This document shows, piece after piece, positions 6,001-40,705 of a stretch of 64,000 nt of DNA. The DNA is from Bolinopsis microptera (taxonomy: Eukaryota > Ctenophora > Tentaculata > Lobata > Bolinopsidae). The notes under the pieces are model-generated. The model was not told the DNA's origin and searched no databases. It was given only the letters and a program-made list of their open reading frames with translations. Every line of letters starts with the position of its first letter. Positions within the stretch are counted from its first letter, which is position 1. The translations under genes were made by a program, and so were the position numbers. Location: NCBI RefSeq assembly GCF_026151205.1, contig NC_087079.1, positions 9,538,635-9,602,634 on the forward strand, read 5' to 3'.

Positions 6001-9000
6001 AGTTTTACTGTGAGCTCCAGGAAGCTATCAGAATTCCTGCCAGACATGAACTTTTCATCATGGGTGATTTTAATGCTAGGCTAGGGAAACGGACTAAATC
6101 AGATTTTGAAAGTGGTCTTCAAACTAACATGGGAAGACATGGTATTGGTCGGCGTAACGAAAATGGCGAAAGGTTGCTAGCTTTCATGATCACTAATGGA
6201 CTCTATGCAGCCAACACTGCATTTTCACATGCGAGCAGACACACCAACACTTTTACAGGATGGATTAAAGACCGTAGATCCAAAAAGTCTGTACCCTGGT
6301 TTTCTCAAATTGATTATGTTTTATGTAGATCTAGAAGTACCCCTCTGCTTGTTGACGCTAGGTCTTACGCTGGTGCAAAACTTAAATCTGATCACAAAAT
6401 TGTAAAAGCAACTTTTGACCTCAGTAAACGTTACAAACTTTACAGTACTGCCAAACACAAAGTCAAGCAGTATAACACCAACTCATTGGTTTGTAGCAAA
6501 GATGTTCAAAGTTCTTTTCAACAAAATGCTGCTCAGAAGATTGAAACTGATACATCTGCCCAGTCAGTCACTGAAAGTTTTAACAACCTTTTCGAGGCGG
6601 TTAAAATTGCTGCATCTGAAACAGTGGGTATGAAAAGAAACACAGCCAAACGTCACAGAACATCAGACCCACAAGTCGTCTCTATGTCAGAAAAGAGACA
6701 CCAATTACTACAACATTTAAACGACAACAAAATGCGTGACAGAACTATCCTGCGTAAGGAAATCAACAGACTCAAGAATGACATTGCAAAGCGCCTTATT
6801 ACACTTGAAACCGCTCATGCCGACCTTCTAGCTGAGACGATCAACTCCACTGATGATACCAGAAGAATGTTCGAAGCAACCAGAGCAATTTCAAGCACAA
6901 AGGACACTCCTCCTATTTCAGTATTCCTACCAGAAACAGAAGAACTTGCTCTCAATGACGAAGATAAGGCAGACATAGTCAAGAACTGGTTCATGGAACA
7001 TTACACAGGCCCAGAACCCCCACTAGAACCTTTTGTTGGAGCTGCTAAGCCATTAGATACGCCTATAACTGCACTTGAAGTTGAGACAGCAGCTAAGAAA
7101 CTAAAGAACGGTAAAGCCGTTGGTCCTGACAACCTCCCTAACGAATTCCTTAAGTATGCACCTCCTTCTTTCTACATGAAGTTTGCATCACTTATCAATG
7201 AGTCCTTTGAAAAACAAGAGCACGTTCAATCGTTCACTGAGGGATATCTTACCCCCCCTACAGAAGCCTGGAAAACCAAAAGGACCAGTTAAGAGTCTGC
7301 GTCCCTTGTGCCTTCTCAATGGAACTAGGAAAATCCTTTCCATGATAACACTCCAGCGTATTCAACAACAGATAGCAGACTACACTGGGCCATGGCAGAA
7401 TGCCTATAAATCAGGACACAGCTGCTCTAATATTGTCTGGACTAGGAACCGACCGGATTGGGGTTTTGGCTGCCGGACCGGATTCAGCCGGATTTGGATC
7501 TCAAATCCGGCAAGCCGGATTTTGCCGGACCGGAACCGGTGGTTTCAGAGTGAAATAAAAGGCAGCCGGATTTTGCCGGTTTTTGCCGGAAAATTTCCTT
7601 CCTTTCCACGCCTAATCTTCATCGAGCACTTCTTGCACCTTGCATAAGGGATCCCATTTTCTTCTGAGTAGAACAACCAGACGGACGATGTTTTAGATTT
7701 ACTACTACTCGACTCGACTTAGGGCGGCTTCAACGTCCGAACAGATATAGTTTTTTTTACAAATCTTCCTATCTACTACTAGACATTGCTTAAACAAGCA
7801 GTACGTAGCAGACACAATGTAACACGAGTAGACACGAGTCACGACACTAGACGAGTAATAATCAGAAATGATATCTAATTGGCATATGCTGCCAGACCCC
7901 TGATTGAGCGCGTTTGTGCGAATTCCCTTTTTTTCATGCAAGTCTGAGTATCATTGGGTCACGTGACTTACAACCAGAGGTGTTTAATAAGGTTGTTCGT
8001 AAGCAGGCACTGTCTAGTACAGTACTAATCACCGTCTGGCGTCTAGAGCTGAGTCACATGATTACAGTAATGAGCTAATTAAGTAGCTACCCAGACCCTG
8101 AACACGTGACCCTCATATTTCGTATTTCATAATCAGAAGATTAAATACTGCCAATTTTGCGATTATAGCCGGGGGCTAGCCCAGGGAGGTGGTCCAAAAT
8201 ATTTTCCGGTTTTTTCTAAGTCCGCACCTACCCCTCGATACACTATTCTGTATTCTGGACTCAAGGTTTCCCCTGGTAATGTGATCACGGAAGGCAGGCC
8301 TCCCCTTTGCAATACGAGTTCGGAAGCGGGAGCTCTCAATACAGGAGGTACGTCTCGAGAACGACTCGGACCGAAAACTTTTAAGTTAAAATTTTTTGAA
8401 GTTTTTCTGAAAACCACTTTTTTCCACGATTCAGGCTACCCTGTTCATTATTAGCCGAAAATATTTTTTCGGTTTTTCGAAGTCCCCACCTACCCCTCGA
8501 TACACAATTCTGGACTCGAGGTTTCCCCTGGTAATGTGATCTCGAAAGGCAGGCCTCCCCTTTGCAATACGAGCTCGGAAGCGGGAGCTCTCAATACAGG
8601 AGGTACGTCTCGAGAACGACTCGGACCGAAAAACTTCTAAGTCAAAATTTTTTAAAGTTTTTCTGAAAACAACTTTTTTTCCACGATTCAGGCTACCCTG
8701 TTCATTATTAGCCGAAAATATTTTTTTGATTTTTTTTTCGGTTAAAAAAACTGAAATCCGGCAAAAATCCGGCAAATTTTTTTGCAGCCGGAGCCGGAAC
8801 CGGAACCGGATTTTGAAACCGGATATCCGGCCGGAACCGGATTCAGCCGGATTTCCGGTCGGTTCCTAGTCTGGACACAAAGGGTTCTTATTTCTGTTGT
8901 CAAGGAGAAACATTGGGAGTTTAGTAAAATGGGGATAGACATGTCATCAGCCTTCGACACAATACATCGCGTCGGTCAACTATCCTCAGGCTACTCGAAG

Positions 9001-12000
9001 ATGCAGGATGCTCAGAAGATGACATAAGACTAGTTAGATATCTGCTCGCTAACACCAAGCTCAGAATTAAGATCAAAAAGACGACATCGGGAGAGTTCGA
9101 AGCCACAATAGGAGCCTTTCAAGGTGACTGTTTGTCCGGCTCGCTGTTTACCATGTACCTAGCTGGAGCACTCTACCACCTTAGAGTTGTTGTTATACAT
9201 CTACGCCCAAATCCCCCCATATCTGAAAGCTCCCTTCCTCTAGAATGGGAATATGCTGATGATGTGGACTTTGCTGATGAAGATGAGGATTCGTTACACC
9301 AGCTCCTTCCAATTTGCAAGGAAATTCTCTCAGAATGGAATTTGCTTGTAAATGAATCTAAAACCGAGTTTGTAAAGTGTTATCTGGCTGGAACTAGTGA
9401 GAAGGACGAAAAAGGAGAACCTCTAAGAAATAGAGAACCTTGGAGGAAGTGTGTGTCCCTAGGCTCTAAGCTATGTAGTAAAGAAGACATACAGCATCGT
9501 ATAATCCTTGGAAATGTTGCATTCGAAAAATACAAGAAAGTTTGGATGCAAGGATCTAAGATTAATCTGAAGACCAAGATTAAGATATACGAAGCATACG
9601 TTACATCTGTTATGCTCTATAACTGCAATAGCTGGGCTACCCCTCAGAACCTATTTGACAAACTTGATGCATGTCATAGAAGACACCTGCGTCAAATATT
9701 GAAGATGACTTATCCCATTATTATCAGTAATAAAGCACTCTATGAACGCTGTGGTGTAACACCGTTGTCAGAGCGAGTGACATATGCTCGCTGGAAAATG
9801 CTTGGACATGTCCTTCGCAGTGACTGCTCATCACCAGCTCAGAGAGCTCTTCAATTTGCTGTTAATGCGTTATTTACCATAAAAGGACGTGTTGGTCGAC
9901 ACCAAAGTAATCTTTTAAAGTTTATTATAAATGATTTGAATAAAAGAAACCTACCATTACATGATATTAATGATCTTTATGATCTTAGGGCTACTGCCTC
10001 TAACAGAGTTTTGTGGAGAAAATTATTTACCTCATAATTAACCCTTATTTTTCAGAGAACTGTTATGTTTTTTTGGGCACTTATCTATATCAGTCTCTTA
10101 AGATGTTTCTTTACTATTTCGAGATTGTTTTAAAAGTTAGATAATAATAAGGACTCATAATTAGCTAAGCTTTGATACAAAGCATGCGAACTCAAAGTCG
10201 CTTTCACAACTTTTGTCAACTGAATTGACAGAAGATCTGGTTCCTCTTATACACAGGAGAACCAGCTTCCTGATAATAAATGATAATTTACATCTTAAAA
10301 AATTGACAACATCTGAATGATTTTGTTGAGTCTTATAAGATATTTTCTCACACAATAATCTAAAAAATGTTCTCGCTTCTGGCCCGCTACCACCCGTGAC
10401 AGAGTACACCAGTGGACAGAAACTCCCATGTTCGACATTCAATATTCTCTCGTTGTATAACATCCGCTTCTGAGTTTCAGCTCTCTCGTATATTTTTTCT
10501 GTTGATGATGAGAGATAAGACTCAGAATTGGGATTGAGAAACTTTATGTCGAAATAGGAGTTCTGTCCCGGACGATAGAATCCCCTGGCACGGACGTCAG
10601 GGTGGGCATTGTCTCCTGTTAGTGTGGTACTTGTTGAGAAAGTCTCCCCGTCTAAAGTCTGTAGGTGGGGCTCACATTCTACGTCTTTGCAAACAGTTGA
10701 TCTACATAAATGCATAGCAACTACGTAGCAAGCAACTTAAAACAGATTGCAACAAATCTGCTCCTTCATAAAATCAAGATCCGAAATTTCAAATTAGTAT
10801 GATGCGCAAAATGCGGCTGGCCCCTCAAATATTAACTTGGGTTTAACTTGAATTGGATCTTTATCAATAATATTATGTGTTGTAGTGTGTAGAGTTCGTT
10901 TAATCGGATATAATATACAATACAGATTCCTTGACAATAATATGTTTTGTGTGTTTCATTCCGTATACTTTGTTATAACTAGATTTAAGAATAGAATTGC
11001 ACCCTGAACTAAGATATTTCCAGAGGCACCTGGACAGGGAATAAGATCATCAATGATGGGCACTACTGCTGTGGGTGGCACTACTGCTGGGGGTGGCACC
11101 ACTTTTGGAGGGGGCAACACCTTTGGAGGGGGCACCACCTTTGGTGGGGGCACAACCATTGGAGGACAAACAACAGGTGGAGGGGGGATGAATGCAACAC
11201 TTGGAACAATGATTACAATGGTTTGTAGAAACGGATACCGTGAATTTAAAAAAAGTTCTTATCAAATCGTACAGTAACATAAAACTGATCACTAATTACC
11301 GTATGTTGGTATGTTTTAATTAATTATCAGCTAATTTCTTCCAGACATCACTTGGGATAGAATCCAGTTCAGAAGGTGGAGGAGGAAAGCAACAAGTATT
11401 CGCTGACATAGCTGTAATGAAAAACATAAGATGGGCTTTGAAACCGCTGGAAGAATTCGCGAATGGAATGATCAAAGATCCAACCAGAGATTTCAAAATC
11501 GAAATGAAAAAGGTATGTTCATTTGTGATTGATGATTGAACTCTGGACCACTGAATTCGCAGTCCTGTCAAATTGGCAGGTATCCACTATCCAGTGAATG
11601 TTCATAAATATGCGTCATGCGAAATTGTGAAAAAAACTGAAGTAAAAAGGTGTAAAGATTACCTCTCGAGTAGTCAGAACATCTCGGAAATTTACCCAGA
11701 GTCCATGTTATGATTGCTTTTGAAAGCTTGCGTTAGTTTAAATTTGCCAATTTTTTTGTAATTTTGGTACACAGAAGTAAAGTTATGACCCGTTGAAAAT
11801 ATTGATTTAGTATAAAATACACATACAATTTAAAACACGCCAATAATTCAGATGTACGATGAAATGATCCACGGTAACGTGGTCCAGTTTGGGGGCCTCG
11901 TCTGGAATTCACAACTAAACAATGCTGTAGTCTTCACTGAATACTGTTCCAAAGGATCCCTTTCGGTTGGTAATATAATTATTCAATTTAGAATAGCTAA

Positions 12001-15000
12001 TCATTTAAGTAATTTATAATTAATAACCATCCCCTTCAAGTGGGTGATAACATACTTTTTAATATAATTCATGGAAAAGGTGTTCTTGCAAATTGTAATC
12101 GAAATTCATGCGCTCTGAAATATCGTGGTTGGAGCGCGCAATATTAATTTTAGCATCGCAAGCGCATCTTGTGGCATTGACCTTGACAGAAACGTTTTTA
12201 ATTTCCCGCGCTTAACAATTGGTTAAATGGTTAGGGGCCATCTACTTAGGACGTCCGGCAAAGTAGGGGGGTGGTTTTGGAATTTCGGAAAAATCCGGAC
12301 AGGGGGAGGGGTTGGTTTCTGAAAATCCGAAAATTTTGTAAGTAACTACACATTTTATTAACAATGAATTTGAGTTGGTTTTATTTGTACTCTTAAAAGT
12401 AGCTGGAAATCCGGACGTCCGGGGGAGGGGGGTCGGGTGGTTTTCAAAATTCGGACACATCCAACATCCGGACAGGGGGAGGGGGGTCTGGAAATCTGCG
12501 ATTTTGGTGGACGTCCTAAGTAGATGGCCCCTTATGGGAGCCGAGAACCATTAGTTAACCTACGCTGTGTTCATCATGCAGTATCTAAAATAATATCCTG
12601 CACTGATATTAAACAATCTTGCACCAAAAGGGTATATATATATAATATATAAGTCACACCTGCCCAAGCTAGAGAGCCATGGCAGGGCCAGTAAGCAAGG
12701 CCCGGACCAAAACAAACTGAACCGACTGTGTATAGAAAATATCAATATGGAAACAATATTAACAATAATATAGAATAATATAAATAGTATTAAGGAGGGA
12801 CAAACCGGGGCCCCTCCACGGGCCGAAGAGAAAGGTGATCCTGACTCCTGAGTGTTGCGTTGGGTGTTCTTCTCTTCTTCTTTATTGAGGGTGGACGTGG
12901 ATATGATATCCAGTCTTGTTTGCTGTAGGGGGGTTCTGTTCTTGTGGACGTATAGTCCTGAAAACTGATTGAGTTATTTCAAAATTAATGAAATCAATTC
13001 CGTGAATATCTCGAACGAAGATACAGGCGATTTTGTTCTTTTTTTGGGGTATTTTCGCCTTAGTATCCACATGGGCGTGGCTGCACCGCGGTCACCGTTA
13101 GGTGGTTGGGACCCCCTCAAAAGTTCGGTCAGTGGTCCTAGTTTGTTGGTCAACTGCTATCTCGAAATTAAGTTTCACAAAAAATACCCATTGGTATGGC
13201 GAGAAGTTCTGCTTGGAAGATTGTTATATCAGATCCCAAGGAGATGAAGAACCAAAAGGGTAGATTTGAACTAAATCTATATTGAAAAACTGAGAATTCA
13301 TGGATCATTGCGTATTCGTCACCTCCCTTGCCCGGAAGAGAAGCCAGAGGGGCCAAAGATCATCACTTTGCGGTCGACATAGCATTAATATATTATATGA
13401 AGACATGGACAAGGCAAACGAGTCTCTGCTCCGTGTAGAATCGGCAGCAGCGAGCGTAGGGCTACACACAAACGAAGGCAAGACCAAGGTTATGACTAAG
13501 GTTATGACACTGAATATGGGATCGATCTAGCGACCTTCAAAGCCGATCGGGAGAAGCCATAGAAAATGTGGATGATTTCGTGTACTTGATAGAAAGCACA
13601 TTGTGATAATTGATCCAGGCTAAGCTATTTGACCATCGATTGATAAATCTCTCACGGGCAATAATTGTTATCTGTTAATTAACGAATCTCTGTTATCATG
13701 TTTAAATTGTGTGCGTTAGGACACTTACTACTTTACTACATCCATCATGTAAAGAGCGGAGTAAGACTTCGTATATGCGCTTTAGTTATTAATCAGCAAT
13801 AAATGAAACACATTTTTGTTAAAAATATGAATGCAATGAATAATAATTTTAATATCGTCATAATTTTCGCTAGTTCATATGCCACATCATTGAATTCATA
13901 TTTGGGTATTGTTTCTTCAAGGTTTATCGTTCACCAACAAGGAAATTTTCATCAGATAGTGATGGTTTGGTTGCTAAGATTGTTGTTATCTTCATGATTG
14001 TCGCTAGTTCATATGCCACGTCATTGCCACTATCAAGTTTCATCATCCGCCAACAAAGAACGTTGAAACTAGATAGTGATGGTTTGGGTTGCTAGTAGTA
14101 GTACCATTGATACTCTCGTTGCTGTAACTTCTATCAAGTCCATCTACCACAAACCCGACATTAACCGACCCTATCACTGAAAATTGTAATATTAATCTGA
14201 TCAATGATCATGGTGGGAGTTCGATTTATAATTTAACTAGATAAAATAACCAGATAAAATACTCATTACTCTCGTTTATAAAATGAGTTGCATCGCGGTT
14301 AAATAATTTGATTAATGAATTATGAATGTGTAGAATATTATACCTTTTCAGTACGACAAGTCACCTCTTCACTTGCAATGAAATCAAACATGGTTCTTGT
14401 TTCCCGCTCAAGTCAAAAATATATAATAAAAATATCAATAATTCAAGTCAAGAAAGAAAGTCGCTAGATAAATATGAACAACAAAATCTAAATACTAAGC
14501 AGTCTTCGTTGGCTCCGTCACTACAAAGAATACTGCTTAGTCTAAACCTTACAAACGATGAGTGTAGAAAATGAAAGAACCGTGCGTATTACTATATCAT
14601 ATTACTATTATCATACATATATTAGGACGCAATAAAAATACCGGACCACGATGTATGGGGACTTGCCACCCCATGGCAACATTAAAATATATCGACTCTG
14701 TTACATCGTTTCCTGTTAATATAAAACTCCGTTACAAATTGAACTGGGATATGGCAAATGGCAATACTTCACCTTAGTTCAATGAAATATGATAAAGTAA
14801 TGTATAACTAGTCTATTATTCCGCGGCGGTGTATTATTCCTTCATTAATCTGATGCTATTAGGGGTCGTTCACAATTCACATATTACCGAATCATTCGAG
14901 GGAAGAGGGGGGGGGGGGGGGGTTCCAAATGATTACGCTAGTGTAATTTTGACACAATAGCTATGTGTAAAAATGAATTTGGAGGGGAGAGGGGGAATTA

Positions 15001-16466
15001 AAAATTGGCCAAAAAGTGATTACGTAATATGTGAACGACCCCTTATTACCAATCTCAACTCTCATCATCACAGGATGTGTTAGAAGATTCGAGCTCAAAG
15101 CTGGACCTGAACTTCAGATTGAGTTTCGTGGTGGACATTATCAACGGAATGGACTACTTACATAACTTCACCGAAATGCTTTCTCATGGGTACCTCAAGT
15201 CCACGAACATTCTCATCACCGGCTCTTTTACCGCAAAGATAGCTGACTTCGGATCTCTGATGAGGTAGAGTAACGGTTCATACCACGTCGTGACATAGGG
15301 TTAAAAGGTTTCTTAAATAGTGCACAAACGTTACAACTCAATCTAAAACAATAGTGACATTTGATTTATCCTACAGGACCAATGACAAGCAGAAAGTGGG
15401 CAACCTAGAGTACATCAGTAGACAAATCAGATCTGTGTGGACTGCACCTGAAATTCTCAGAGATGAAGAGAAATTGAATGAGTTAAAAGGTAAATTCTTA
15501 CGTTCAAATTAATTACAACACTACAAATCTATTACATTTATTGAGTATTATGTAACGCGATGGAAATATCTTAAGCGGGTAATATCCTGTTCAAACCCAG
15601 GATACATAACATGAAGACTTTGTTGTAACTTGTATGTAAAGCATTAATACAGTAAAATCCCGATTTACCGTGGAGTTTGAGGGAAAGGAAGCATCCGTGG
15701 TAAATCGGGGTTTTGCACGACTTATTGCAAAATATTACCGCACCTACATTCTACATGTTGTCCCTGTTGTACTTTAATATCAGCTTGCTCTGCATTGTAT
15801 GCTGAATTAGTTTATAGAGCCGGAAAAATTAGGTAAAAACTATCAAAATTTAGTAAGTTACGGTTAATTTTTCGTTTTATAAACTGCTCATATCTTAACA
15901 GGAACAAGAGAAGGGGACGTCTACAGCTTTGGAATTGTGTGTCACGAGATCATTGATTGTTCTGGCCCATTCAATTCTCATGACGACAATGGCATCGGAG
16001 CTGATGGTTTGTGAATTTACAGCAAGTCTTCATTTCAAATCCATCTTGTCACTTGTTGATAAGACAAGTTGGTCAGGCATAAAGGAGCCAAGGTGGTCGC
16101 AGCCATGACCATTACATGCATTATATCCTTTTGATCAAATTTATCAATTATTTTAGCCATCAAATCTCGCATTCATAACCTTACCTTGATACAAATCAAG
16201 TAAAACCAAATAATTAATTAATTAATAAATTAACCGTTCAGAGATCGTGCATATGGTGAAGGGGGCAAAAACGAAGACCTTCAGGCCAGCTTTCAGTGGA
16301 ATTAAAAATAATGACAGAGAGATATACGTGATGAACATGGCTCGGGAATGTTGGACTGAGAATCCTAATGATCGGCCTACTTTTGAGCATTTGAGAATGT
16401 CTTGTGTTCCTAAAATTGAAGACGGCTCGTGAGTAGTTAAACTCTTTTTGTTAATTCCTGAAATAT

Positions 16467-16499
<33 letters not shown>

Positions 16500-18987
16500 C
16501 AAATCAAACAAGAAAGTTGTTCAATTTTTTCGAATGAACGTACATTTTTACATTTTTAAGGTATAGTGAATAATTGAATCGAGTCAAATTATAATACATT
16601 GTGATTGGAGTTATTTATTAGACGTTTGCAATATAAGCACAACACCATGGGATATCACGAATATATCATTACTATAACTGGTTTTTTCCAGGATGACATT
16701 GGGACAGTGCATTTTGCTGCAGTTCAAAGAGATGGTTTCGGAAAAAGAAAAGGAAATAAAATCGTTTGACTCTGAAATACAAACGAAAAAGGGCGTTTTC
16801 AGCGAGATGCAGCGCCAGTTATTACCGCCGTATGTAATTTTTATCAACACTTTAAACGAGATCTATGATTTTATTTTTATCCATAGCAATTGTTTTGACA
16901 ATGAGATCACACTTGATAAATGATGATACTATCTCCGAAATTACAGACACGTTTTGAACCAGTTAATGGTAGGACAAGCAACCGAGCCCCACCTACTGAA
17001 ATCTACTTCCGTTCTTAGTCTAGAAATTACAGGTAATTTTAGTATACTAAATACCTAATAGGTATACTAAAATACCTAATTAGGCTTAAATCTGTAAAAC
17101 AAGCTAGTGCAGTAAATTACTATCAGTCAAGATGATCATCTGACATGCCAACTATTGAAATGTCTAATTATTTTATTGCAAATTTAATTCTGAAATAAAG
17201 CTGATTCTATCGTTTAGCTGTAAAGCTGATTCTAATTCTATTGTCAATCGTTTCCCTTTCTCTCATAGTTAAACTTAAGGTTACGAATTTAAATTATTCA
17301 GGCACTTGCAATGCTGAGATGCTAAAAGCTATTGAAGGTGACCGTGAGAATATATGGAATTCCATCGAACAGATCCAAGAAACTGTCCTTGGATTATCTC
17401 TCGACTATCCAGATCTCTTCTGTGTACGTTATTGATTTCTATTTTTGTGATGTTGGTTTTGGATGACATCACAGGAATTATTATGTTTTGATTTTTACTT
17501 ACATTGTATGCTAATATGCTATCTTTATTCTTTAACTTTAAGTTTATTGCGCGCGCATATCAGCGTAAAGTTTCCAATATCTAACGACATGATTCATGAT
17601 TTAAAAGTTAAAGTACAGTGTATAAATAAGAATAAATCGAAGGATAAATTGTATTAATTGAAGGGTGTGATAAGGGTTCGCACAATTGTTTTATCCAATT
17701 ATTTATAGTTATTTTCGGTTAGTAATTTAATTCACTTTTGTTTTAGGTGGTGACATCAGCTAACTTTTTCGTTATCCTTGCAAACGGTTCCGAGCAAAGT
17801 GCCAAGTCTCAGGCCACTGATCTGCTGAAACTCTGTAAAGGAGTACAAAGCTTCATTGAGTTGCTGGAGTTACCTTTCTTTAAACTTAACATCCGAGCTG
17901 GTATAGATTCAGGTTTGTGGCTACTGCAGAGAACTGGACTACTGGAGTTAACACTTAACGGAAATTTATATTCATAGTACCCTGTTACGGATTGTTCTAA
18001 TGGGTCCAATCGCATTTAGTCTCACTCGATGATACAGTGCCGTTAAAATATCTAATCGAGTATTATAACGTATGCTTTGTATTATTTGTATAAAATAAAA
18101 TGTTGCACATTCTGATTTAACCGAATGCCAATAACATATAATAATTATAGTTAAACCTGCACTGATCCGAATTCAATTTGTACTATGCTAAGTTACAAGT
18201 ACATGAAGTACACTAGTATAACACTGGTGGATTCGCGTAGTGTTATTGAATCTCATGATTTGATGTTTCTTTCATTCAAATTTCTGATTGTTTCTGAATA
18301 GACTCAGTAAAGACAGATTCTAATGGAAATATTAATAGCTGAATAACGTGTCGACATTTCTAAGTCATACTCATATTCTCAAATTTTTTGTTATATTATT
18401 ATACTACGTAAAGTGACTATTACAGTCACGATAAATCATCTTTAATAAAAAAACGTGTTTTCAGGCCCTAGCGCTGTTGGCCTGGTGGGTGCTAAATTCC
18501 GAAGTTTCCAGTTGTACGGTGAAACCTATCAGAACGCAGAAAAACTCAGATCTGAAGCAGTTGGTAGGTTCTTTGCAGCATCAAATCCCTTTTGGAATGT
18601 GGCTGGTTTTCTTGTTGCATACCCAGTTATATTTCATGTTTTGGTTGATTTCCATCGATTTATGACAGATAATTCCATTTCAGAGGGCGTGTGCAATGTG
18701 ACTGAAAACACGCTAAAGATGATGGGAGGCTTTGCTGAAAAATTCGAGAATATTCGATCTGTCAAGGTACGTTCAAAGTAACTATAATGGTTAAGGATTA
18801 TCAACAATTCAAGTGTTAATATGCAGCGGACCTTTTAATTTCACATTTCGATCGCTTGTGTTTTTGCGTATATTTAATATTCTGCCGTATCCAGTATCTG
18901 ATTCTATGCGAAAATTTAAATTATAGATTTCAAATGTTTTAGTCACTACCTAACGTGAAGATCTACGCCACAAATCTGGCATCTTGA
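1..18987 (+). CDS. Receptor guanylyl cyclase-like protein with degenerate cyclase domain (5' end outside window)
   Basis: Single-pass receptor of the natriuretic-peptide-receptor type; at least 1157 residues in the window. Exons read: 229-332, 468-591, 780-896, 1163-1407, 1615-1853, 2166-2244, 3111-3306, 3650-3779, 3919-3973, 4210-4343 (weak acceptor), 4641-4741, 5039-5206, 11024-11176, 11331-11512 (start uncertain), 11852-11965, 15074-15264, 15377-15489, 15902-16006, 16242-16428, 16692-16829, 16947-17032, 17302-17423, 17747-17912, 18465-18563, 18684-18766, 18943-18987; all join in phase. Exons to 4741 form the ligand-binding ectodomain. Exon 5039-5206 carries the membrane span (FFPVLVVVLVLICIPLADVI) and a basic juxtamembrane stretch. 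11331-16428 is the kinase-homology domain (FTEYCSKGSL, SHGYLKSTN without catalytic Asp, DFG, WTAPEIL, GDVYSFGI, CWTENPNDRPTF). 16692-16829 is the coiled dimerisation helix. 16947-18987 is cyclase-like (GPSAVGLVGAKF), but the metal, guanine and transition-state residues are changed. The first exons and signal peptide lie to the left. Confidence 0.85.
2298..2821. mobile_element. Inverted-repeat (MITE-like) element with poly(G)/C-rich ends
   Basis: The left end is a G run, GGGGGCGGGGGATCAGG, then GTACGTGACGTCG. The right end is the imperfect inverse (CAACGTCACGTAC and an ACCCCGCCCCCCG tail). It lies in the intron between the exons ending at 2244 and starting at 3111. No coding content. The target duplication is not clear, so the superfamily is unassigned. 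A reading frame through the G run (poly-Gly) is an artefact. Confidence 0.55.
3438..3606. mobile_element. CAGTAAAACCCCG-type MITE (mariner/pogo-like), copy 1
   Basis: Ends CAGTAAAACCCCGATTTACC and its inverse GGGGTTTTACTG, with internal repeats of CGCGGTAAATC. Related copies occur at 15650-15712, 44643-45119 and 56271-56369. The 44.6 kb copy is flanked by TA on both sides, which suggests a Tc1/mariner-type element. This copy sits in an intron of the receptor gene. Confidence 0.65.
5517..7442 (+). pseudogene. RTE-like LINE ORF2, 5' part (endonuclease and start of reverse transcriptase), broken
   Basis: The reading frame from ATG 5517 encodes an apurinic-type endonuclease: FATWNVRGI, ALQETK, INCYSPT, MGDFNARLG, QIDYVL and SDHKIVKATF in order. 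It is followed by the reverse-transcriptase linker LKNGKAVGPDNLPNEFLKY. A frameshift at the C run near 7250 moves the frame, after which LQKPGKPKGPVKSLRPLCLL and NAYKSGHSCSNIVWT continue the RT domain. At 7442 the gene is interrupted by a DNA transposon. The RTE-like assignment rests on the endonuclease style (RNENGERLLAF). The element lies in the same orientation in a 5.8 kb intron of the receptor gene and is not functional. Confidence 0.85.
7443..8868. mobile_element. Non-autonomous hAT-type transposon inserted in the LINE
   Basis: Termini TAGGAACCGACCGGA and its exact inverse (TCCGGTCGGTTCCTA) lie between perfect 8 bp direct repeats GTCTGGAC at 7435-7442 and 8869-8876. Eight-base duplications are the hallmark of hAT transposition. 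The LINE reading frame continues across the two copies of the duplication. The interior holds a tandem pair of ~257 bp units (8180-8440 and 8440-8700) and CCGGAACCGG-rich ends. No transposase frame is seen. Confidence 0.85.
8869..10155 (+). pseudogene. RTE-like LINE ORF2, 3' part (reverse transcriptase palm and C-terminus), broken
   Basis: Continues the LINE after the hAT insertion. RT motif A reads GIDMSSAFDTIHR near 8935-8970. After a further frameshift come IGAFQGDCLSGSLFTMYLAG (motif B) and YADDVDFADE (motif C, catalytic DD), then a C-terminal domain with YNCNSWATP and CHRRHLRQILKMTY. Stop at 10035-10037. A short 3' region ends in an ATAATAATAAGG-like tail near 10155, as in RTE-type elements. 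At least two frameshifts plus the hAT insertion make it inactive. Confidence 0.85.
10161..10715 (-). pseudogene. Fragment of a conserved retroelement-associated protein, function unknown
   Basis: Open frame of 184 codons (ATG at 10715) with the block ARGFYRPGQNSYFDIKFLNP, then KRMLYNERILNVEHGSFCPL, VYSVTGGSGPEA and FLRCKLSFIIRKLVL. I recall this combination (…GFW/Y..G..AFFDV+V.NPN…, …VEHGSFTPLVFS..GG…) as a frequent unnamed protein in invertebrate genomes, usually near retroelements. The PD…FDIK spacing resembles a PD-(D/E)XK nuclease core, but this is inference. The N-terminal part of the family is missing and no splice context supports a host exon. It lies antisense in the receptor gene's intron, next to the LINE 3' end. 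Confidence 0.5.
12234..12531. mobile_element. Harbinger-like MITE (TTA target duplication)
   Basis: 298 bp element with ends GGGGCCATCTACTTAGGACG and the exact inverse CGTCCTAAGTAGATGGCCCC, flanked by TTA on both sides (12231-12233 and 12532-12534). A three-base TWA duplication points to PIF/Harbinger. The interior is rich in GGGGGAGGGG and TCCGG. It lies in the receptor gene intron after exon 11852-11965. A larger, interrupted copy occurs at 21711-22458. Confidence 0.7.
13075..13190. repeat. Fragment of the TTAA/poly(G) element family
   Basis: About 115 bp matching, in inverse orientation, the left inner part of the element at 20008-20797. Shared strings include TAGTTTGTTGGTCAACTGC and GGGACCCCCTCAAAAGTTCG. 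It shows that the sequence is dispersed in this genome. Confidence 0.55.
13290..13620 (+). pseudogene. LINE reverse-transcriptase fragment
   Basis: The frame reads ILYEDMDKANESLLRVESAA then VGLHTNEGKTKVMT, which is the RT motif C/D region of RTE/L1-type elements (…LL..VE.AA..VGL.IN..KTKVM). The usual YxDD just before it is degraded. After a stop near 13530 another frame gives a short relic ENVDDFVYL. A short dead remnant in the receptor gene intron. Confidence 0.6.
13860..14095. repeat. Diverged tandem duplication
   Basis: Two ~120 bp units share CGCTAGTTCATATGCCAC, GTCATTG-type sequence, CACCAACAA/CCGCCAACAA and AGATAGTGATGGTTTGG. No coding signal. Intronic. Confidence 0.45.
14862..15042. 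mobile_element. GGGGTCGTTCACA MITE (Harbinger-like), copy 1
   Basis: 181 bp element with ends GGGGTCGTTCACA and inverse TGTGAACGACCCC, inner ends containing TTACGTAAT, flanked by TTA (14859-14861 and 15043-15045). The interior has a long G run. It ends about 30 bases before the receptor gene exon that starts at 15074, so it occupies the branch-point/polypyrimidine zone of that acceptor. Confidence 0.75.
15650..15712. mobile_element. CAGTAAAATCCCG MITE fragment
   Basis: Short relic of the CAGTAAAACCCCG family: CAGTAAAATCCCGATTTACC and GTAAATCGGGGTTTTGC. Intronic. Confidence 0.55.
16470..16497. repeat. Poly(G) tract in a receptor-gene intron
   Basis: Uninterrupted run of 28 G in the intron after exon 16242-16428. 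No flanking inverted repeat was recognised, unlike most other G runs here. Confidence 0.8.
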
Positions 18988-19144
18988 AACGATTGATAGG
19001 AACAGCGTTCAGAGCATTTCTACTACTACTAGTGATCTCTACTATCTCTAGTGGGTGACTCAGCTTAAAGTCAAACTTAAAGTGAACTGGAAAGCCGATT
19101 ATACTTATAGCCTTTGATTGATTATTATGATAATTTTCAATAAA
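18943..19144 (+). promoter_or_regulatory. Last coding exon and candidate polyadenylation signal of the receptor cyclase-like gene
   Basis: The terminal exon opens after a TTTTAG acceptor and reads 14 codons to TGA at 18985-18987. Its KIYATNL matches in position the KVRTYWL end of receptor cyclases. An AATAAA lies at 19139-19144, about 150 bases beyond the stop, and is the best candidate polyadenylation signal. Confidence 0.5.
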
Positions 19145-19618
19145 AGTTGAGCTACGAATTCTTGCTAATTTTAGTGTCAGTACGAAGAAATTCGGTAGAT
19201 AGTTATTGTCAACCAATACACAATCACCAAGCATATTTTGCTTTCGCTATTTTATCTAACCGTTTGATTTGCGTTATTTTAATTTTCCACATGTAAAAAT
19301 AAATTAATGATTAGGTTATATGTGACCCTGAACCCCTGGATTGAAGTTGCTCTGTTTAGTTTTAAAAATATAAAATAATTCATCGCGATAGTGCTACAAC
19401 TGCTTAATAATAATGTTAGTTTTTGGAAACCATCAAAGTAAAATGTGCTGATATTAGTATTTTAATTATTTATTTATTTATCTAATTTGTTTCATATTGA
19501 TTGTTATATTTGAATACAACTTACATTAACTTATGTTTCACTCTCAACTGTTTTCGTAGATCCACCGCTGCCAATTGAAAGGTTTCATTCTTACTTAGTA
19601 TCCTGTATGTAGTAATTT

Positions 19619-19794
19619 GGAGTCGTTCACATATTACGTAATCAGCCGAGGGGGGAGGCCAGGGGTTTCCACATAATTACGCTAGTGTAATTTTGACACA
19701 ATAGCTATGTGTAAAACTGATTACGGAGGGGGGGGGGGGGGGGGGGGGGTTAAAAATTGTTCAAAAAGTGATTACGTAATATGTGAACGACCTC
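19619..19794. mobile_element. GGAGTCGTTCACA MITE (Harbinger-like), copy 2
   Basis: Second copy of the 14862-15042 family: left end GGAGTCGTTCACATATTACG, right end inverse TATGTGAACGACCTC, core ACGCTAGTGTAATTTTGACA identical to copy 1. Contains an expanded G run of about 20 bases. TTT flanks both sides. It sits in the gap between the receptor gene and renalase. Confidence 0.75.
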
Positions 19795-20007
19795 TTTGAA
19801 CATTTTATTATAATGTTATGCAGTGTCCACGAAAGGGGTATTATACAACCGATCGTGCTAAATCACTAGAAATTCGAGCAAGGGCTAATATTTAAATCAA
19901 TTTTGGTGGATTTGCATTAACACTTTGAAAATGAAAAAACGTATTATAAATGTTTAATCTCGATATAAACTTTTGTAATATACATTAAATTAGAAAACAT
20001 CACTTAA

Positions 20008-20754
20008 GGGGGGGGGGGGGGGGGGGTTCACCCTGATTTTTTGTGAAACTTGGTTTCGAGATAGCAGTTGACCAACAAACTAAGACCAGTTACGGAACTT
20101 TTGAGGGGGTCCCGGACCCCAACCGCCAAACGGTGCCCGCGGGGCAGCCACGCCCATATTTTGTCCAAATTAGGCCCAATTTAGCCAAATACCCTGAACA
20201 TGCCCAAAATCCAGATTTTAGGTGCTCTACTTGTAGCTAGTGGTCCCCTGAACTCGTATATGAATTTCCATCAAGATTGGACAAAAAATGACTGAGTTAT
20301 GAGCAAAAAACCATATTTGGGCATACGCACTAAATTTGATCGATTTTGGCCCATATATTAGTCAAATATCAATATTTTTGAATGAAACCAACTTTATATG
20401 GAAGGTAAGCCTATACTACACATTCTCTATGATTATCAGCTCAGTATCTACCTAACTGTGGATTCTGTGTTCAAATAATCGCAAAAAATGAACAAAATTG
20501 CCCATATCTCAGTTTGCGATATTTGCAAAACTGATTTCGCTCAAAACAATAGAACTCAACAGGGTTTCAATATTTTTACATGAAATTTTCAGAATCAACG
20601 TAGAATCGCATTTCGACCTTAAGTTTTGGGACAGAATTTTGAGTTAGGTCTTTAAAAAAAAGGCCTAACTCAAAATTTGGCGGCCAAATTCCAAAATTCG
20701 CAATGCGAAATTCAAAAGTTCGGTCACTGGTCCTAGTTTGTTGGTCAACTGCTA

Positions 20755-20797
<43 letters not shown>
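20008..20797. mobile_element. TTAA-flanked element with poly(G)/poly(C) termini (piggyBac-like MITE?)
   Basis: TTAA at 20004-20007 is followed by about 19 G. A poly(C) run of about 43 bases is followed by TTAA at 20798-20801. Inside the homopolymers lies an inverted repeat, GATAGCAGTTGACCAACAAA and its inverse at about 20735-20755. TTAA duplication is typical of piggyBac. No transposase is present. Fragments of the interior occur at 13075-13190 and 42950-43060. Confidence 0.6.
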
Positions 20798-20923
20798 TTA
20801 ACTTAAAAACGGGTCACGTCCATTATTCCAGAATCAGCTTTCTGACTATTGATTAACTCCATAAACTCGAATGTAACTGACTTCCTATGACAAATCATTA
20901 AAATAGAAAAAAAGTTAGCATCC

Positions 20924-23900
20924 TTACGATTCCATTGGAATATTTGGAATATTAAATCCCTCTTTGACCCTATCAGCAAGAATCTCAGCTGCTTGAGCAC
21001 ACATAGATAAATTCGAGGTGTTCATGAATGAATCTCCACCAGCAATAACAAGGGGATTTTCGCTAATAGTCACACATCCTGGGGCACCAGGGTAGGGTTT
21101 GTAAATCTGCCCGTATCGCCAAAAGTGTGGTATGACTTTTTTAGGTGCCGGCAACTCTGGGAAAACTTCTTTAAGCCGAGCTAACATTACCTCACCCGCT
21201 TCTTCTTTTGTTTTTACATCCGTGTTCTTGACAGCCCATGGCGCAGAGGAGTGGATAAGGAGGGTTGGGTCCAAACCTGAGGAATTATTTCGTGAATTTT
21301 TCGGACGTAATTCCAGAAACAACAATTTAGATAATAGGTTTAAGTCACAGCTGTGAGAAAATGTCGTTTGCAGAGCATTGTGTCCTGCAATAGCTTCACA
21401 ATAGTTAAGATGATCCAAACCATCACAATCCAATCCCAACTCTGACTAGTGCACGAAGTGACAATGGCTCCAAGCCCCAGCCTAAAAGTACGAACCCTGA
21501 GATCGTTTGACATTGTCCCACACAGTAAACCGAACCACCTCATCATCGTGGTACTTCATGACCCAATCGTAGTGAGGCACTTCTTCGAACACTGCCATCA
21601 GGGAAAAACGAGGCGTGAACTTGACTTTAGATATTGCATCACTGGTCTGAGATTGAGAAGAATTAATACTTAATAGTATTCGGTCACAAGAACCAAGCAT
21701 AGTACAGTTGGGGGCCATCTACTTAGGACGTCCGGAAAATAGAGAGGGGGGTGGTTTTGGAATAATTTTGGACAAATCCGGACAGGGGGAGGGGGGGGGG
21801 GGGGGTTTCTGAAAATACGGACGTCCGGAAATTTTGGCAGAATTAACGAAAAAGTCCCATTTATTTTTAATTTTAACTCTTTTATTTGACACTAATTACT
21901 CTGTAAGTTCAGATCCCTGTATCTTGAACGAGAAGTCGATTCCCAGAGCAGCTCATGAGAGCCGAGACACAACTCGCATATTCTCCTACTGCCTTAAAAC
22001 TTATTCGATTGGATGGCTACTTATTAAGTACTTAAATGTAACTGTGCTAAACTTGTTCGACACTAAATGTATAATTGTCTATTTTAAGTAACTACACATT
22101 TTATTGTAGCGCGATGCGTTACTGCCGCGCCGCGCACTCAATTCTACCTGTCATTCCGTCGAATCTCTATTCGTGTTTATCTCTATTATGTTTATGAACA
22201 TAATAGCCTGAGGTAAACTCAATTATGCTTCTCGCAACGACGCTAGATCGGCGAGATGCGCTACTGTGCCTCGCCGAGCTGCGATGAATTGACATCGTCA
22301 ATTAACACATTTCAATTTTTATAACAATGAATTATTTGTACTCTTAAAAGAAGCTGGAAATCCGGGGAAGGGGTGTGGTTTTGAAAATTTGGACACACCC
22401 GGACAGGGGGAGGTCTGAAAATTTGCGATTTTGGCGGACGTCTTAAGTAGATGGCTCCTCGATAATTATAGCAGGCGTGAAAGCGGGCGAGCGTGCTAAT
22501 GGCTAAATCACTCTACAGTCGATCTTCGAGATTTTTCTAAAAGGGCCCCCATGACACAAACTTAAAATGCTCCCCTGACGAGATATTGGCGAAAAACTGT
22601 CTCGATCACGTGATATGACCGTATAGGGAAGTTATTCTAATTTCTCGTTATATTAGGGTTTCAGCATATGCATTTGTTAAGGATTGGGTTAGGGTTACTG
22701 TTGTAGGTTTACAACCTACCAGGACGCGCGCCGAGTTGGACTTACGAGTATCACCCGTTAAGGGTTACTGACACTGTTAGGATTGGAATCAGATTAAAGG
22801 ATTAGGGTTTCGAATAGTATAGTCGTTCAGGACCAGCTAGAGAACGGGTTGAAAAAGTCACGTGACAGTCGAGTGTACAGTGATTATTATCATCATCCGA
22901 AAGCGGGCAACGGGTGCAAGTTAAATTTTGATTCACGATGTCAATCCTTCGCATCTCGGCGATCTGCATATGTTGATGTGGTGATACGAGTTGTATCACG
23001 TCGTGACCCCCACGGTCGTTTCACTATGGCAGAGTTTCTACGATACAGGGGGAGCCGCGCACTCGTGCGTGGCGGGTCATACAACGTATGACAAGTTGCG
23101 AGAAGCATTATTGGATGCGCGCGCGGCCCAGTAGTGCATCGCGCAACAAGTTTAATTCATCAACAGATGTCGCGCCGCGCGTACGCATATATGCGCGCAT
23201 GTTCTCGGGTGTCTAGATGACAGGTTTATGTACTTTCGTCAGAACAATGTAATAAAATTTCGCGTGTCAGAAGATGAATCCGAGTTCGTGGAAACATTTG
23301 TGACAGGATTAAAAACATATTTTTAACTGAATATGTCCGTAAACTGAGTTAGATTTGCCCTGGTATGATACAGTGTCATGAGAACTAACATTTTAAGCCT
23401 CCTGTGAAATATTTCCCTGATTCATGGAATGAATGAAATGAACAAAAAATGAACATTGTCTCAGAATCGCCTGAAATGAGCTGAAACCGATTGGGATCGA
23501 TTGGTAATGATACCAGAAGTGTCCCTGAGAAGTTTGGTGGGTCTAGCATGTTACGAAAGGGCTCTGGGGCAATGTTTCCATTTTGGTTTCAGAGTAGTTG
23601 AGAATTGAGATCGTGGAAACATTTGTGACCGATTTGGAAACATGCCCTTGTAACCGTAATTCTGCCTGGGCTGACTTGGAATCGATCTGGCATGGTAGAG
23701 GGACATGTGTACTATCATTTCTAACCACTCAGAAGTGCGAAATATTGCCCTGGTTCATGGAATGAACGAAATGAACAAAAAATGAACATTATCCTAGAAT
23801 CGACTGAAATGAGCTGAAAACGATTGGGATCGATTGGTAATGATACCAGAAGTGTCCCTGAGAAGTTTGGTGGGTCTAGCATGTTACGAAAGGGCTCTGG

Positions 23901-26900
23901 GGCAATGTTTCCATTTTGGTTTCAGAGTAGTTGAGATCGTGGAAACATTTGTGACCGATTTGGAAACATGCCCTTGTAGCCGTAATTCTGCCTGGACTGA
24001 CTTGGAATCGATCTGGCATGGTAGAGGGACATGTGTACTATCATTTCTAACCACTCAGAAGTGCGAAATATTGCCCTGGTTCATGGAATGAACGAAATGA
24101 ACAAAAAATGAACATTATCCTAGAATCGCCTGAAATGAGCTGAAACCGATTGGGATCGATTGGTAATGATACCAGAAGTGTCCTGTGTCCCTGAGAAGTT
24201 TGGTGGGTCTAGCATGTTACGAAAGGGCTCTGGGGTAATGTTTCCATTTTGGTTTCAGAGTAGTTGAGATCGTGGAAACATTTGTGACCGATTTGGAAAC
24301 ATGCCCTTGTAGCCGTAATTCTGCCTGGACTGACTTGGGATCGATCTGGCATGGTAGAGGGACATGTGTACTATCATTTCTAACCACTCAGAAGTGCGAA
24401 ATATTGCCCTGGTTCATGGAATGAACGAAATGAACAAAAAATGAACATTATCCTAGAATCGCCTGAAATGAGCTGAAACCGATTGGGATCGATTGGTAAT
24501 GATACCAGAAGTGTCCCTGAGAAGTTTGGTGGGTCTAGCATGTTACGAAAGGGCTCTGGGGCAATGTTTCCATTTTGGTTTCAGAGTAGTTGAGATCGTG
24601 GAAACATTTGTGACCGATTTGGAAACATGCCCTTGTAGCCGTAATTCTGCCTGGACTGACTTGGAATCGATCTGGCATGGTAGAGGGACATGTGTACTAT
24701 TATTTCTAACCACTCAGAAGTGTGAAATATTGCCCTGGTTCATGGAATGAACGAAATGAACAAAAAATGAACATTGTCCTAAAATCGCCTGAAATGAGCT
24801 GAAACCGATTGGGATCGATTGGTAATGATACCAGAAGTGTCCCTGAGAAGTTTGGTGGGTCTAGCATGTTACGAAAGGGCTCTGGGGCAATGTTTCCATT
24901 TTGGTTTCAGAGTAGTTGAGATCGTGCAAACAATTGTGACCGATTTGGAAACATACCAACATTCAAGTACGTTTTAAAGTAATTCACACGAGAGTATGAT
25001 AATTATTATCAGTTTAATCTTGTTCAGCGTCATCGAAAATGTAAGGTTACAAGGTTTTCCCTTTGATTTTCATCCATAAAAAATCCTTCTATTTTCGATT
25101 CTCTGAGCCAGCTGTCTGCTGGTTTTCAGAAGGTGGTACCAGATGCTGCTGTATAATTGAGCGTTCAGCTAATTGAGTCCAATTACACACGAAACACTGT
25201 ATATAAGGCCTGATCAAGTAACTTGAGCTCTGCATCTGGTGACGTCACAAAATATCCTAGTCAGCATACGACACGTTACGAATGTGATAACGTGTTCGAG
25301 GATTAACGAATCAAGGTCACGTGATAGGACCGACTGTCACGTGACCTCAGTTATCTCTTATATGGCACTAGGAGCTGCAATTGATCAGCTCTTAATTGGG
25401 CTGCAATCATTGACAGGCCTATAATTACCCAATTTTAAATGAACGATATTTCATTCTACAGAATGATGAGAGTGTAAACAGAATGCTTCCCGGAAACAGC
25501 ACAATGAAGGGAACAAAATCTTCCACCCATAGTCCCTAAATGTTTCCAAATCGGACACAAATGTTTCCACGAGCTCAACTACTCTGACACCAAAATAAAA
25601 ACAATGCCCCAGAGCCCTTTCTTAACATGCTATACCCACCAAACTTCTCAGGGACACTTCTGGTATCATTACCAATCGATCCCAATCGGTTTCAGCTCAT
25701 TTCAGGCGATTCTAGGATAATGTTCATTTTTTGTTCATTTCGTTCATTCCATGAACCAGGGCAATATTTCGCACTTCTGAGTGGTTAGAAATGATAGTAC
25801 ACATGTCCCTCTACCATGCCAGATCGATTCCAAGTCAGTCCAGGCAGAATTACGGCTACAAGGGCATGTTTCCAAATCGGTCACAAATGTTTCCACGATC
25901 TCAACTACTCAGAGACCAAAATGGAAACATTACCCCAGAGCCCTTTCTTAACATGCTAGACCCACCAAACTTCTCAGGGACACTTCTGGTATCATTACCA
26001 ATCGATCCCAATCGGTTTCAGCTCATTTCAGGCGATTCTAGGATAATGTTCATTTTTTGTTCATTTCGTTCATTCCATGAACCAGGGCAATATTTCGCAC
26101 TTCTGAGTGGTTAGAAATAATAGTACACATGTCCCTCTACCATGCCAGATCGATTCCAAGTCAGTCCAGGCAGAATTACGGCTACAAGGGCATGTTTCCA
26201 AATCGGTCACAAATGTTTCCACGATCTCAACTACTCTGAAACCAAAATGGAAACATTACCCCAGAGCCCTTTCTTAACATGCTAGACCCACCAAACTTCT
26301 CAGGGACACTTCTGGTATCATAACCAATCAATCCCAATTGGTTTCAGCTAATTTCAAGCGATTTTAGGATAATGTTCATTTTTTGTTCATTTCGTTCATT
26401 CCATGAACCAGGGCAATATTTCGCACTTCTGAGTGGTTAGAAATAATAGTACACATGTCCCTCTACCATGCCATCTCGATTTCAAGTCAGCCCAGGCAGA
26501 ATTACAGCTACAAGGGCATGTTTCCAAATCGGTCACAAATGTTTCCACGATCTCAACTACTCTGAAACCAAAATGAAAACATTGCCCCAGAGCCCTTTCT
26601 TAACATGCTAGACCCACCAAACTTCTCAGGGACACTTCTGGTATCATAACCAATCAATCCCAATTGGTTTCAGCTAATTTCAAGCGATTTTAGGATAATG
26701 TTCATTTTTTGTTCATTTCGTTCATTCCATGAACCAGGGCAATATTTCGCACTTCTGAGTGGTTAGAAATGATAGTACACATGTCCCTCTACCATGCCAG
26801 ATCGATTCCAAGTCAGTCCAGGCAAAATTACGGCTACAAGGGCATGTTTCCAAATCGGTCACAATTCTGTCACAATTCTGTCACATGTTTCCAAAATGTT

Positions 26901-39205: not shown

Positions 39206-40705
39206 TAACGTGGTCATGGTAAGTAAATAAAACTTGAGCATAAAGTTAGCTACTATATGGTTGTTAGAAATTACCACAATTGCACTTTTAAACTTCACAA
39301 CTGAATCACCAATCAATTCTTGTCACTACTTCAAAGTTTTGAGACGGCAGAATGTTGTGAATTGTGAATCCTAAGCTATCACACCAGTTCAATTACACTT
39401 CAAAACTTCAAAACTGAATCACCAATCAATTCTTGTCACTACTTCATAGTTTTGAGACGGCAGAATGTTGTGAATTATAGCTCATAAGCTATCACTCCAG
39501 TTCAATTACATTTTCTTACTTCAAAACTGAATCACCAATCAATCCTGGTCACTATTTCAAAGTTTTGAGTCGGCAGAATGTTGTGAATTATGGTTCCTAA
39601 GCTATCACTCCAGTTCAATTACACTTTTAAACTTCAAAACTGAATCACCGATCAATTCTGGTCACTATTTCAAAGTTTTGAGTCGGCTGAATGTTGTGAA
39701 TTATGGTTCCTAAGCTATCACTCCAGTTCAATTACACTTTTAAACTTTAAAACTGAATCACCTATTAATTCTGATCACTATTTCAAAGTTTTGAGTCGGC
39801 AGAATGTTGTGAATTATGGTTCCTAAGCTAATAACGTGGTCATGGTAAGTAAATAAAACTTGAGCATAAAGTTAGCTACTATATAGTTGTTAGAAATTAC
39901 CACAATTGCACTTTTAAACTTCACAACTGAATCACCAATCAATTCTTGTCACTACTTCAAAGTTTTGAGACGGCAGAATGTTGTGAATTCTGGTTCCTAA
40001 GCTATCACACCAGTTCAATTACACTTCAAAACTTCAAAACTGAATCACCAATCAATTCTTGTCACTACTTCAAAGTTTTGAGACGGCAGAATGTTGTGAA
40101 TTGTGGTTCCTAAGCTATCACACCAGTTCAATTACACTTCAAAACTTCAAAACTGAATCACCAATCAATTGTTGTCACTACTTCAAAGTTTTGAGACGGC
40201 AGAATGTTGTGAATTATAGCTCATAAGCTATCACTCCAGTTCAATTACACTTTCTTACTTCAAAACTGAATCACCAATCAATCCTGGTCACTATTTCAAA
40301 GTTTTGATACGGCAGAATGTTGTGAATTATGGTTCCTAAGCTATCACTCCAGTTCAATTACACTTTCTTACTTCAAAACTGAATCACCGATCAATTCTGG
40401 TCACTATTTCAAAGTTTTGAGTCGGCAGAATGTTGTGAATTATGGTTCCTAAGCTATCACTCCAGTTCAATTACACTTTTAAACTTCAAAACTGAATCAC
40501 CGATCAATTCTGGTCACTATTTCAAAGTTTTGAGTCGGCAGAATGTTGTGAATTATGGTTCCTAAGCTATCACTCCAGTTCAATTACACTTTTAAACTTC
40601 AAAACTGAATCACCGATCAATTCTGGTCACTATTTCAAAGTTTTGAGTCGGCAGAATGTTGTGAATTATGGTTCCTAAGCTATCACTTCAGTTCAATTAC
40701 ACTTG
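39206..40705. repeat. ~114 bp minisatellite, about 12 units
   Basis: Units share AAAACTGAATCACCAATCAA, TTTCAAAGTTTTGAG(A/T)CGGC and AGAATGTTGTGAATTATGG. The ~85 bp leader ATAACGTGGTCATGGTAAGT … TTAGCTACTATA occurs twice (39206-39290 and about 39830-39915), so the array itself was duplicated in blocks. No coding content. Confidence 0.85.

Follow-up and report, generated by a model that had tools for sequence, protein, structure and literature searches.

Whether a receptor guanylyl cyclase (rGC) that appears to have lost its catalytic residues is a gene in decay or a receptor kept for other work is the question raised by a gene of Bolinopsis microptera, a ctenophore and hence a member of a group of animals that matters for how signalling systems arose. 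The gene lies in a stretch of 64,000 nucleotides (assembly GCF_026151205.1, contig NC_087079.1, forward strand, positions 9,538,635 to 9,602,634). The whole of this stretch is called the window; coordinates are those of the window, all features of the gene are on its + strand, and exon numbers are those of the 26 exons inside it. An initial annotation of the locus had proposed a selected pseudoenzyme rather than a dying gene. The analysis presented here points to a cyclase domain that is dead, as predicted from the residues at its site, and that is nevertheless conserved as a structure.

The gene was identified as an rGC by profile and structure matches. Pfam models matched the protein in the order kinase (6.3e-33) and then Guanylate_cyc (6.3e-08), and the best PDB relatives over the kinase and cyclase parts together were NPR1 (4.9e-49) and GC-C (1.8e-33). 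Homology of the cyclase domain alone to GC-C was detected at 9e-09. The pseudokinase matched NPR1 at 1e-36, with the adenosine triphosphate (ATP)-site Lys and the DFG Asp kept and the HRD Asp absent as in NPR1. An earlier report states that the HRD motif is missing from rGCs (PMC3014569).

Two introns of the cyclase domain agree in position and phase with introns in part of the canonical rGC genes of this genome, eight loci of which were compared. A phase-0 intron before the VETIGD codon is also present in L055 and L008, is ambiguous in L005, and is absent from L003, L004, L052, L057 and L063. A phase-1 intron inside the Gly of the H[ST]G motif is also present in L003, L057 and L063 and absent from L004, L005 and L055; the motif was found in six of the eight loci and not in L008 or L052. 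Read in order, the protein consists of a signal leader, an ectodomain, one transmembrane helix, the pseudokinase, a signalling helix and the cyclase domain, with the leader and the two helices assigned by reading the sequence. By these matches its identity as an rGC kinase plus cyclase is beyond chance, and the initial statement that the cyclase-homology exons align in order with receptor cyclases is borne out.

Cyclase-homology exons 21 to 26 occupy 16947–18987, exactly the interval first annotated, and the last of them ends with TGA. The alignment set the window domain beside NPR1, GC-C and other cyclases of this genome; three of the genome's canonical domains were joined by eye for this alignment and for the tree described below. 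Six positions were scored against the active receptor cyclases, with catalytic and selectivity roles as in the class III cyclase literature, and all six are replaced. In exon 21 (16947–17032), the first metal site FSDI reads SLEI, with Glu at the metal-1 Asp. Exon 23 (17747–17912) reads VVTSANFF in place of KVETIGDAY, with Val at the guanine-selecting Glu and Asn at the metal-2 Asp. Exon 24 (18465–18563) carries SFQLYGETYQNAEK, in which the guanine Cys has become Gln, the catalytic Asn Gln and the catalytic Arg Lys. Exons 22 (17302–17423), 25 (18684–18766) and 26 (18943–18987, including the TGA stop) were placed by exon joining. All three motif readings of the initial annotation were correct by alignment.

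An enzyme's set of two metal Asp, guanine Glu and Cys, and catalytic Asn and Arg is thus kept at none of the six positions. Neither is a half-site of the ODR-1/DAF-11 type present, as the metal Asp pair and the Asn/Arg pair are both gone. Four of the six replacements bring in a close chemical neighbour (D>E, D>N, N>Q, R>K); the term “lost” therefore stands for a prediction of inactivity and not for a blank site. Read in this way, a dead cyclase domain in the window gene is well supported.

The reading frame of the gene is intact. The 26 window exons (229–18987) have GT/AG borders throughout and join into one open frame with no internal stops; this part of the initial annotation stood, while its count of 1158 codons was replaced by 1167. 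The gene is also longer than the 26 exons originally described, with an extra first exon upstream of the window that supplies the start Met and a signal-like leader and runs from L050:2272 to window base 35, giving 27 exons and ~1422 residues in full. The 3' end of this first coding exon lies at 1–35, with the frame open from the ATG in L050 into the window and a donor reading gtactt; its end at base 35 was set by eye from the phase required by the next exon.

The assembly (264.65 Mb, 232 contigs) was searched with the window cyclase domain, ectodomain and pseudokinase. The nearest relatives in the genome are two loci on contig C4, referred to as copy A (L046/L047, about 10975–10986 kb) and copy B (L048/L049, about 11018–11032 kb), which are 94.7–97.5% identical to each other over long aligned stretches and 89% identical over one shorter stretch. 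When both copies were rebuilt exon by exon, the pseudokinase and cyclase domains were open and the exon order was that of the window gene, with the last cyclase exons fused. Their cyclase motifs read EIT for SDI, TLATESLY for VETIGDAY and YQIFGPVYTIADM for YCLFGDTVNTASR. All six positions are changed in copy A (Glu, Leu, Ser, Gln, Thr and Met), two as in the window gene and four differently; copy B has the same residues as copy A at the catalytic motifs. By exon order and motifs the C4 copies are relatives of the same receptor design.

Comparison with copy A indicates selection on the domain. Silent differences between the two genes amount to 0.72–0.92 per site and are saturated, and the proportion of replacement differences (pN) is highest in the transmembrane exon (0.50) and the cyclase domain (0.48), followed by the linker (0.44), the pseudokinase (0.36) and ectodomain exons 7–11 (0.33). 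Amino-acid identity is 32% in the cyclase domain and 46% in the pseudokinase; five canonical cyclase domains are 59–68% identical among themselves. Cyclase codon positions 1, 2 and 3 differ at 0.55, 0.41 and 0.69, with a 95% interval of 0.12–0.29 for the excess at position 3. In a neutral simulation that took the window's own cyclase domain as ancestor and a total silent divergence (dS) of 2.4, none of 2000 runs was stop-free, with a mean identity of 7% and a mean of 24 stops, compared with 32% and no stops in the real pair. Of 64 columns that are hydrophobic and 66 that are polar in three canonical sequences, the window gene has hydrophobic residues at 49 and 12, and copy A at 48 and 21, respectively. 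Between copies A and B, over all compared domains, the proportion of silent differences (pS, 0.026) exceeds pN (0.0089; p 0.003).

Taken together, saturated silent sites in a pair that keeps 32% identity without stops, the position-3 bias and the hydrophobic pattern argue for selection on the dead cyclase domain and against decay. By this comparison, catalytic constraint is gone and structural constraint on the domain remains. The features are those of a selected pseudoenzyme, as initially proposed, with retention of the fold judged from homology and the hydrophobic pattern and inactivity predicted from residues. The paralogous pair, its shared derived losses, the kept identity and the simulation all support that proposal.

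The shared losses also bear on the age of the change. Seventy alignment columns are invariant in five canonical cyclases; 18 of them are unchanged in the window gene and 19 in copy A, and 45 are changed in both. The same new state is found in the two genes at 19 of these 45 columns, 18 of them with a residue and one with a gap; the metal-1 Glu and the guanine Gln are among these states. Had the two genes changed independently, the chance of 18 shared residues among 44 would be p 8e-08 at an assumed coincidence of 10% and 0.001 at an assumed 20%. In a tree of eight sequences, the window gene and copy A were split from the rest with support of 100/99. From the 18 shared derived residues, catalytic loss is probably, at least in part, older than the split of the two genes.

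A function can be proposed from these results with moderate confidence, namely that of a receptor of type I rGC architecture whose cyclase is a pseudoenzyme and which most likely dimerises with active rGCs and lowers or gates them. The receptor is predicted to bind a ligand and to make no cyclic GMP (cGMP). Its cyclase domain would have been kept because it still folds and dimerises; we infer pairing from the kept domain and the helix. The sites of class III cyclases lie between two subunits, of which one gives the metal Asp pair and the other the Asn and Arg. Since the usual residues of both halves are missing here, the receptor most likely pairs with subunits of active rGCs present in its cell and lowers or gates their output; neither site of such a pair should work, and the receptor would be an inhibitory or gating partner. 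A dominant or heterodimeric partner role is plausible, and the dominant partner or scaffold of the initial annotation stands as a hypothesis.

Several observations weigh against this interpretation. The partner role draws on the geometry of known cyclases. Between the window gene and copy A, identity is only 29% in the signalling-helix linker and 32% in the transmembrane exon; the position-3 excess in the linker exon, which is short, is not significant (-0.04 to 0.28). Saturation of silent sites precludes an exact ratio of replacement to silent rates (dN/dS) for the pair. The cyclase domains of copies A and B differ by no silent and three replacement changes, an uninformative comparison in which constraint since duplication is not visible. 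In the tree, the stem of the pair is very long (3.74 changes per column) and the branch of copy A (5.05) was flagged for its length; the two may thus be grouped by their long branches, and the tree alone is weak. Ectodomain exon 5 of copy A is frameshifted by one base to a TGA, as judged by eye. Copy B is without exons 1–5: its match to copy A begins just before exon 6, unrelated sequence stands in their place, and exons 1–5 were not found nearby by the ectodomain search of the genome. With the frameshift in A and the truncation of B, two of the three loci may make no full receptor; one of them is copy A, on which the comparison mainly relies and which may itself be a pseudogene by now.

The main rival explanation, possible but distinctly less probable than pairing, is an output that involves no dimerisation, such as that of a decoy, clearance or scaffold receptor which would bind ligand or partners of the kinase domain, with the cyclase fold kept for stability alone. 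Conservation against copy A is distributed as such a receptor would have it: the ectodomain is the best conserved part of the gene (55% identity in exons 7–11) and the pseudokinase keeps its ATP-site Lys and DFG Asp, while the linker, transmembrane exon and cyclase domain are conserved least. A plain decoy, however, needs no cyclase domain, yet this one is kept with an intact frame, intact splice sites and a bias of differences towards codon position 3.

Residual or altered nucleotide function, by which the site would act as a nucleotide or metal sensor or be weakly active, is improbable. The near-analogue replacements in the window gene speak for it, but in copy A three of the four positions carry Ser, Thr and Met instead, and the guanine Glu has become Leu. 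The analogue pattern is not kept in the family, though the metal-1 Glu is.

Even less credit is given to a decaying pseudogene caught early. The strong divergence of the cyclase domain would fit decay, as would the C4 copies, where features of pseudogenes are present (exon 5 broken in A, truncation in B). In the window gene such features are absent, with all 26 exons open and GT/AG borders throughout. Under neutral drift in a single lineage the cyclase domain rarely stays free of stops (8% of 3000 runs at 0.1 substitutions per site and 0.8% at 0.2), the domain shows the position-3 bias, and its residues were probably lost, at least in part, before a split that is old enough for silent sites to be saturated. 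Decay was rejected for the window gene on the open frame, the simulation and the codon bias, although the C4 copies may be examples of it.

Misassembly, or alternative 3' exons encoding an intact cyclase domain elsewhere in the gene, is scarcely credible, as no supporting evidence was found, the C4 copies show the same design, a whole-assembly search with the window domain (13 matches at E up to 1) led back to its own locus, to the C4 pair and to remote cyclases on C9, C2 and C7, and the sequence at 19000–21000 reads as repeats followed by a minus-strand frame.

The remaining parts of the gene precede the cyclase exons. The ectodomain is encoded by the first 11 exons (229–4741; 229–332, 468–591, 780–896, 1163–1407, 1615–1853 and 2166–2244 for exons 1–6, and 3111–3306, 3650–3779, 3919–3973, 4210–4343 and 4641–4741 for exons 7–11), with GT/AG borders and a continuous frame. 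It is common to the window gene and the C4 paralogues, at 46–55% identity to copy A, and in that sense the initial claim that the receptor keeps its ectodomain holds. A natriuretic-type domain (ANF_receptor or type I periplasmic-binding) was not recognised in these searches: a search of the 818-residue N-terminal part against Pfam up to E=10 gave one match, to an unrelated TACC3 region at 0.046 and under the cut-off, and a family profile of the ectodomain run against the PDB gave no significant chain. The best of the PDB matches, to VAV2 at 0.046–0.39, were at chance level, and a fold assignment by this route was rejected.

The next exon (5039–5206) encodes the transmembrane and juxtamembrane segment, in which a hydrophobic stretch read from the translation, FPVLVVVLVLICIPLADVIY, is followed by RKRRQ. 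A linker exon (11024–11220) that precedes the kinase homology domain contains a coding GTT/GGG-rich repeat of the unit GTTxGGG (11059–11163); no counterpart of this exon was found in copy A by exon search, and different sequence is present there as judged by eye. The kinase homology domain, or pseudokinase (11345–16428, Pfam PF07714), is encoded by exons at 11345–11512, 11852–11965, 15074–15264, 15377–15489, 15902–16006 and 16242–16428. An exon at 16692–16829 ends in LLPP; its end aligns with NPR1, and it was named the signalling-helix or dimerisation linker by position. A putative polyadenylation-type signal, AATAAA, lies at 19139–19144, 152 bases past the stop. The largest intron of the gene holds, at 5508–10037, frames of 594 and 369 residues that resemble the endonuclease and reverse transcriptase of a long interspersed nuclear element, identified by eye and broken up by other sequence.

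Other loci of the same genome (G000) were noted during the searches. Of its 46 matches to PF00211, 45 were listed, all but the one at C3:6614750, and L008 was read in the right direction around one motif. Two adjacent rGC genes lie on C2, L001/L044 (C2:8349241) and L002/L045 (C2:8353684). The first has one open frame of 1244 residues in which both metal Asp are present, as are the guanine Glu and the Cys, but which reads REPRYANNLES for the expected DTVNTASRMES, with the Asn and Arg gone; it would be a half-site cyclase in need of a partner. The second matches in two frames of 1025 and 273 residues, and its cyclase domain was read in frame over the first part alone. The cyclase exons of L060 (C8:8699777) and L061 (C9:10364423) both read KYCVFGETVNLATAMEE, with Ala at the expected catalytic Arg.

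Photoprotein genes form large tandem arrays of single open frames on C3, C5 and C13; a search with aequorin (E up to 0.001) matched 55 places in the genome, among them 15 with equal scores on C5 at 17012–17026 kb. One photoprotein gene (L078, C1:22004 kb) gave 1.1e-123 against berovin and 4.6e-121 against mnemiopsin 1, both of ctenophores, whereas its matches to jellyfish photoproteins were far weaker (2.5e-18 to 4.1e-14), which marks the genome as that of a ctenophore. Mitochondrial COX1 had no match in the assembly. Within the window, ~26 copies of ACCCTA at 57200–57358 correspond to the TTAGGG telomere unit on the other strand, inside the chromosome. A 326-base unit is present in 4.7 tandem copies at 23406–24954 and 4.1 at 25540–26864, and peptides shared between opposite strands suggest that one array is inverted relative to the other. 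A 113-base tandem repeat (4.9 and 7.1 copies) is found at 39277–40704.

Pseudoenzymes are known across enzyme families. If the present reading is true, a cyclase domain can be retained for work other than catalysis, as kinase domains can, and the gene offers a natural test of whether the mixing of active and dead subunits sets rGC output. NPR-C is a receptor without a cyclase domain that removes natriuretic peptide; the window gene would share with it the predicted absence of cyclase output, but keeps the domain at full length. A dominant-negative NPR-B mutant was reportedly engineered, whereas the window gene is natural and has a full-length cyclase-homology domain. That mutant is a precedent for an inactive rGC subunit with a dominant-negative effect (PMC4249455).

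Human GC-D and GC-G are called pseudogenes (PMC1435932). They resemble the window gene as rGC genes without activity, which in the latter is predicted, but the window frame is open and its domain constrained. A survey of ctenophores describes three ANPR-like receptors in Mnemiopsis that are cGMP-coupled and have an ANF-receptor part (PMC10073611); like the window gene, these belong to the membrane cyclases of ctenophores, there of natriuretic-receptor type. The passages on them name no dead members, and the words “residue” and “inactive” are absent from the main text of that survey. A full-length rGC whose cyclase domain is entirely dead and still conserved is described in none of the titles and abstract openings among the papers listed.

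The closest functional comparison is with ODR-1/DAF-11 of C. elegans, an obligate heterodimeric rGC in which each monomer supplies essential residues to one site (PMC5225109). These subunits, like the one proposed here, work otherwise than as ordinary homodimers, but they keep half-sites, whereas the window gene has lost the usual residues of both halves. NPR1 (GC-A) and GC-C are matched by the window gene in domain order, pseudokinase and cyclase homology, and some of its introns are those of canonical rGCs of this genome; it differs from both in the replacement of all six site residues and in an ectodomain with no significant family match. New relative to the initial annotation is a C4 pair that has the same unusual ectodomain and a cyclase domain which, judged from the residues, is likewise dead.

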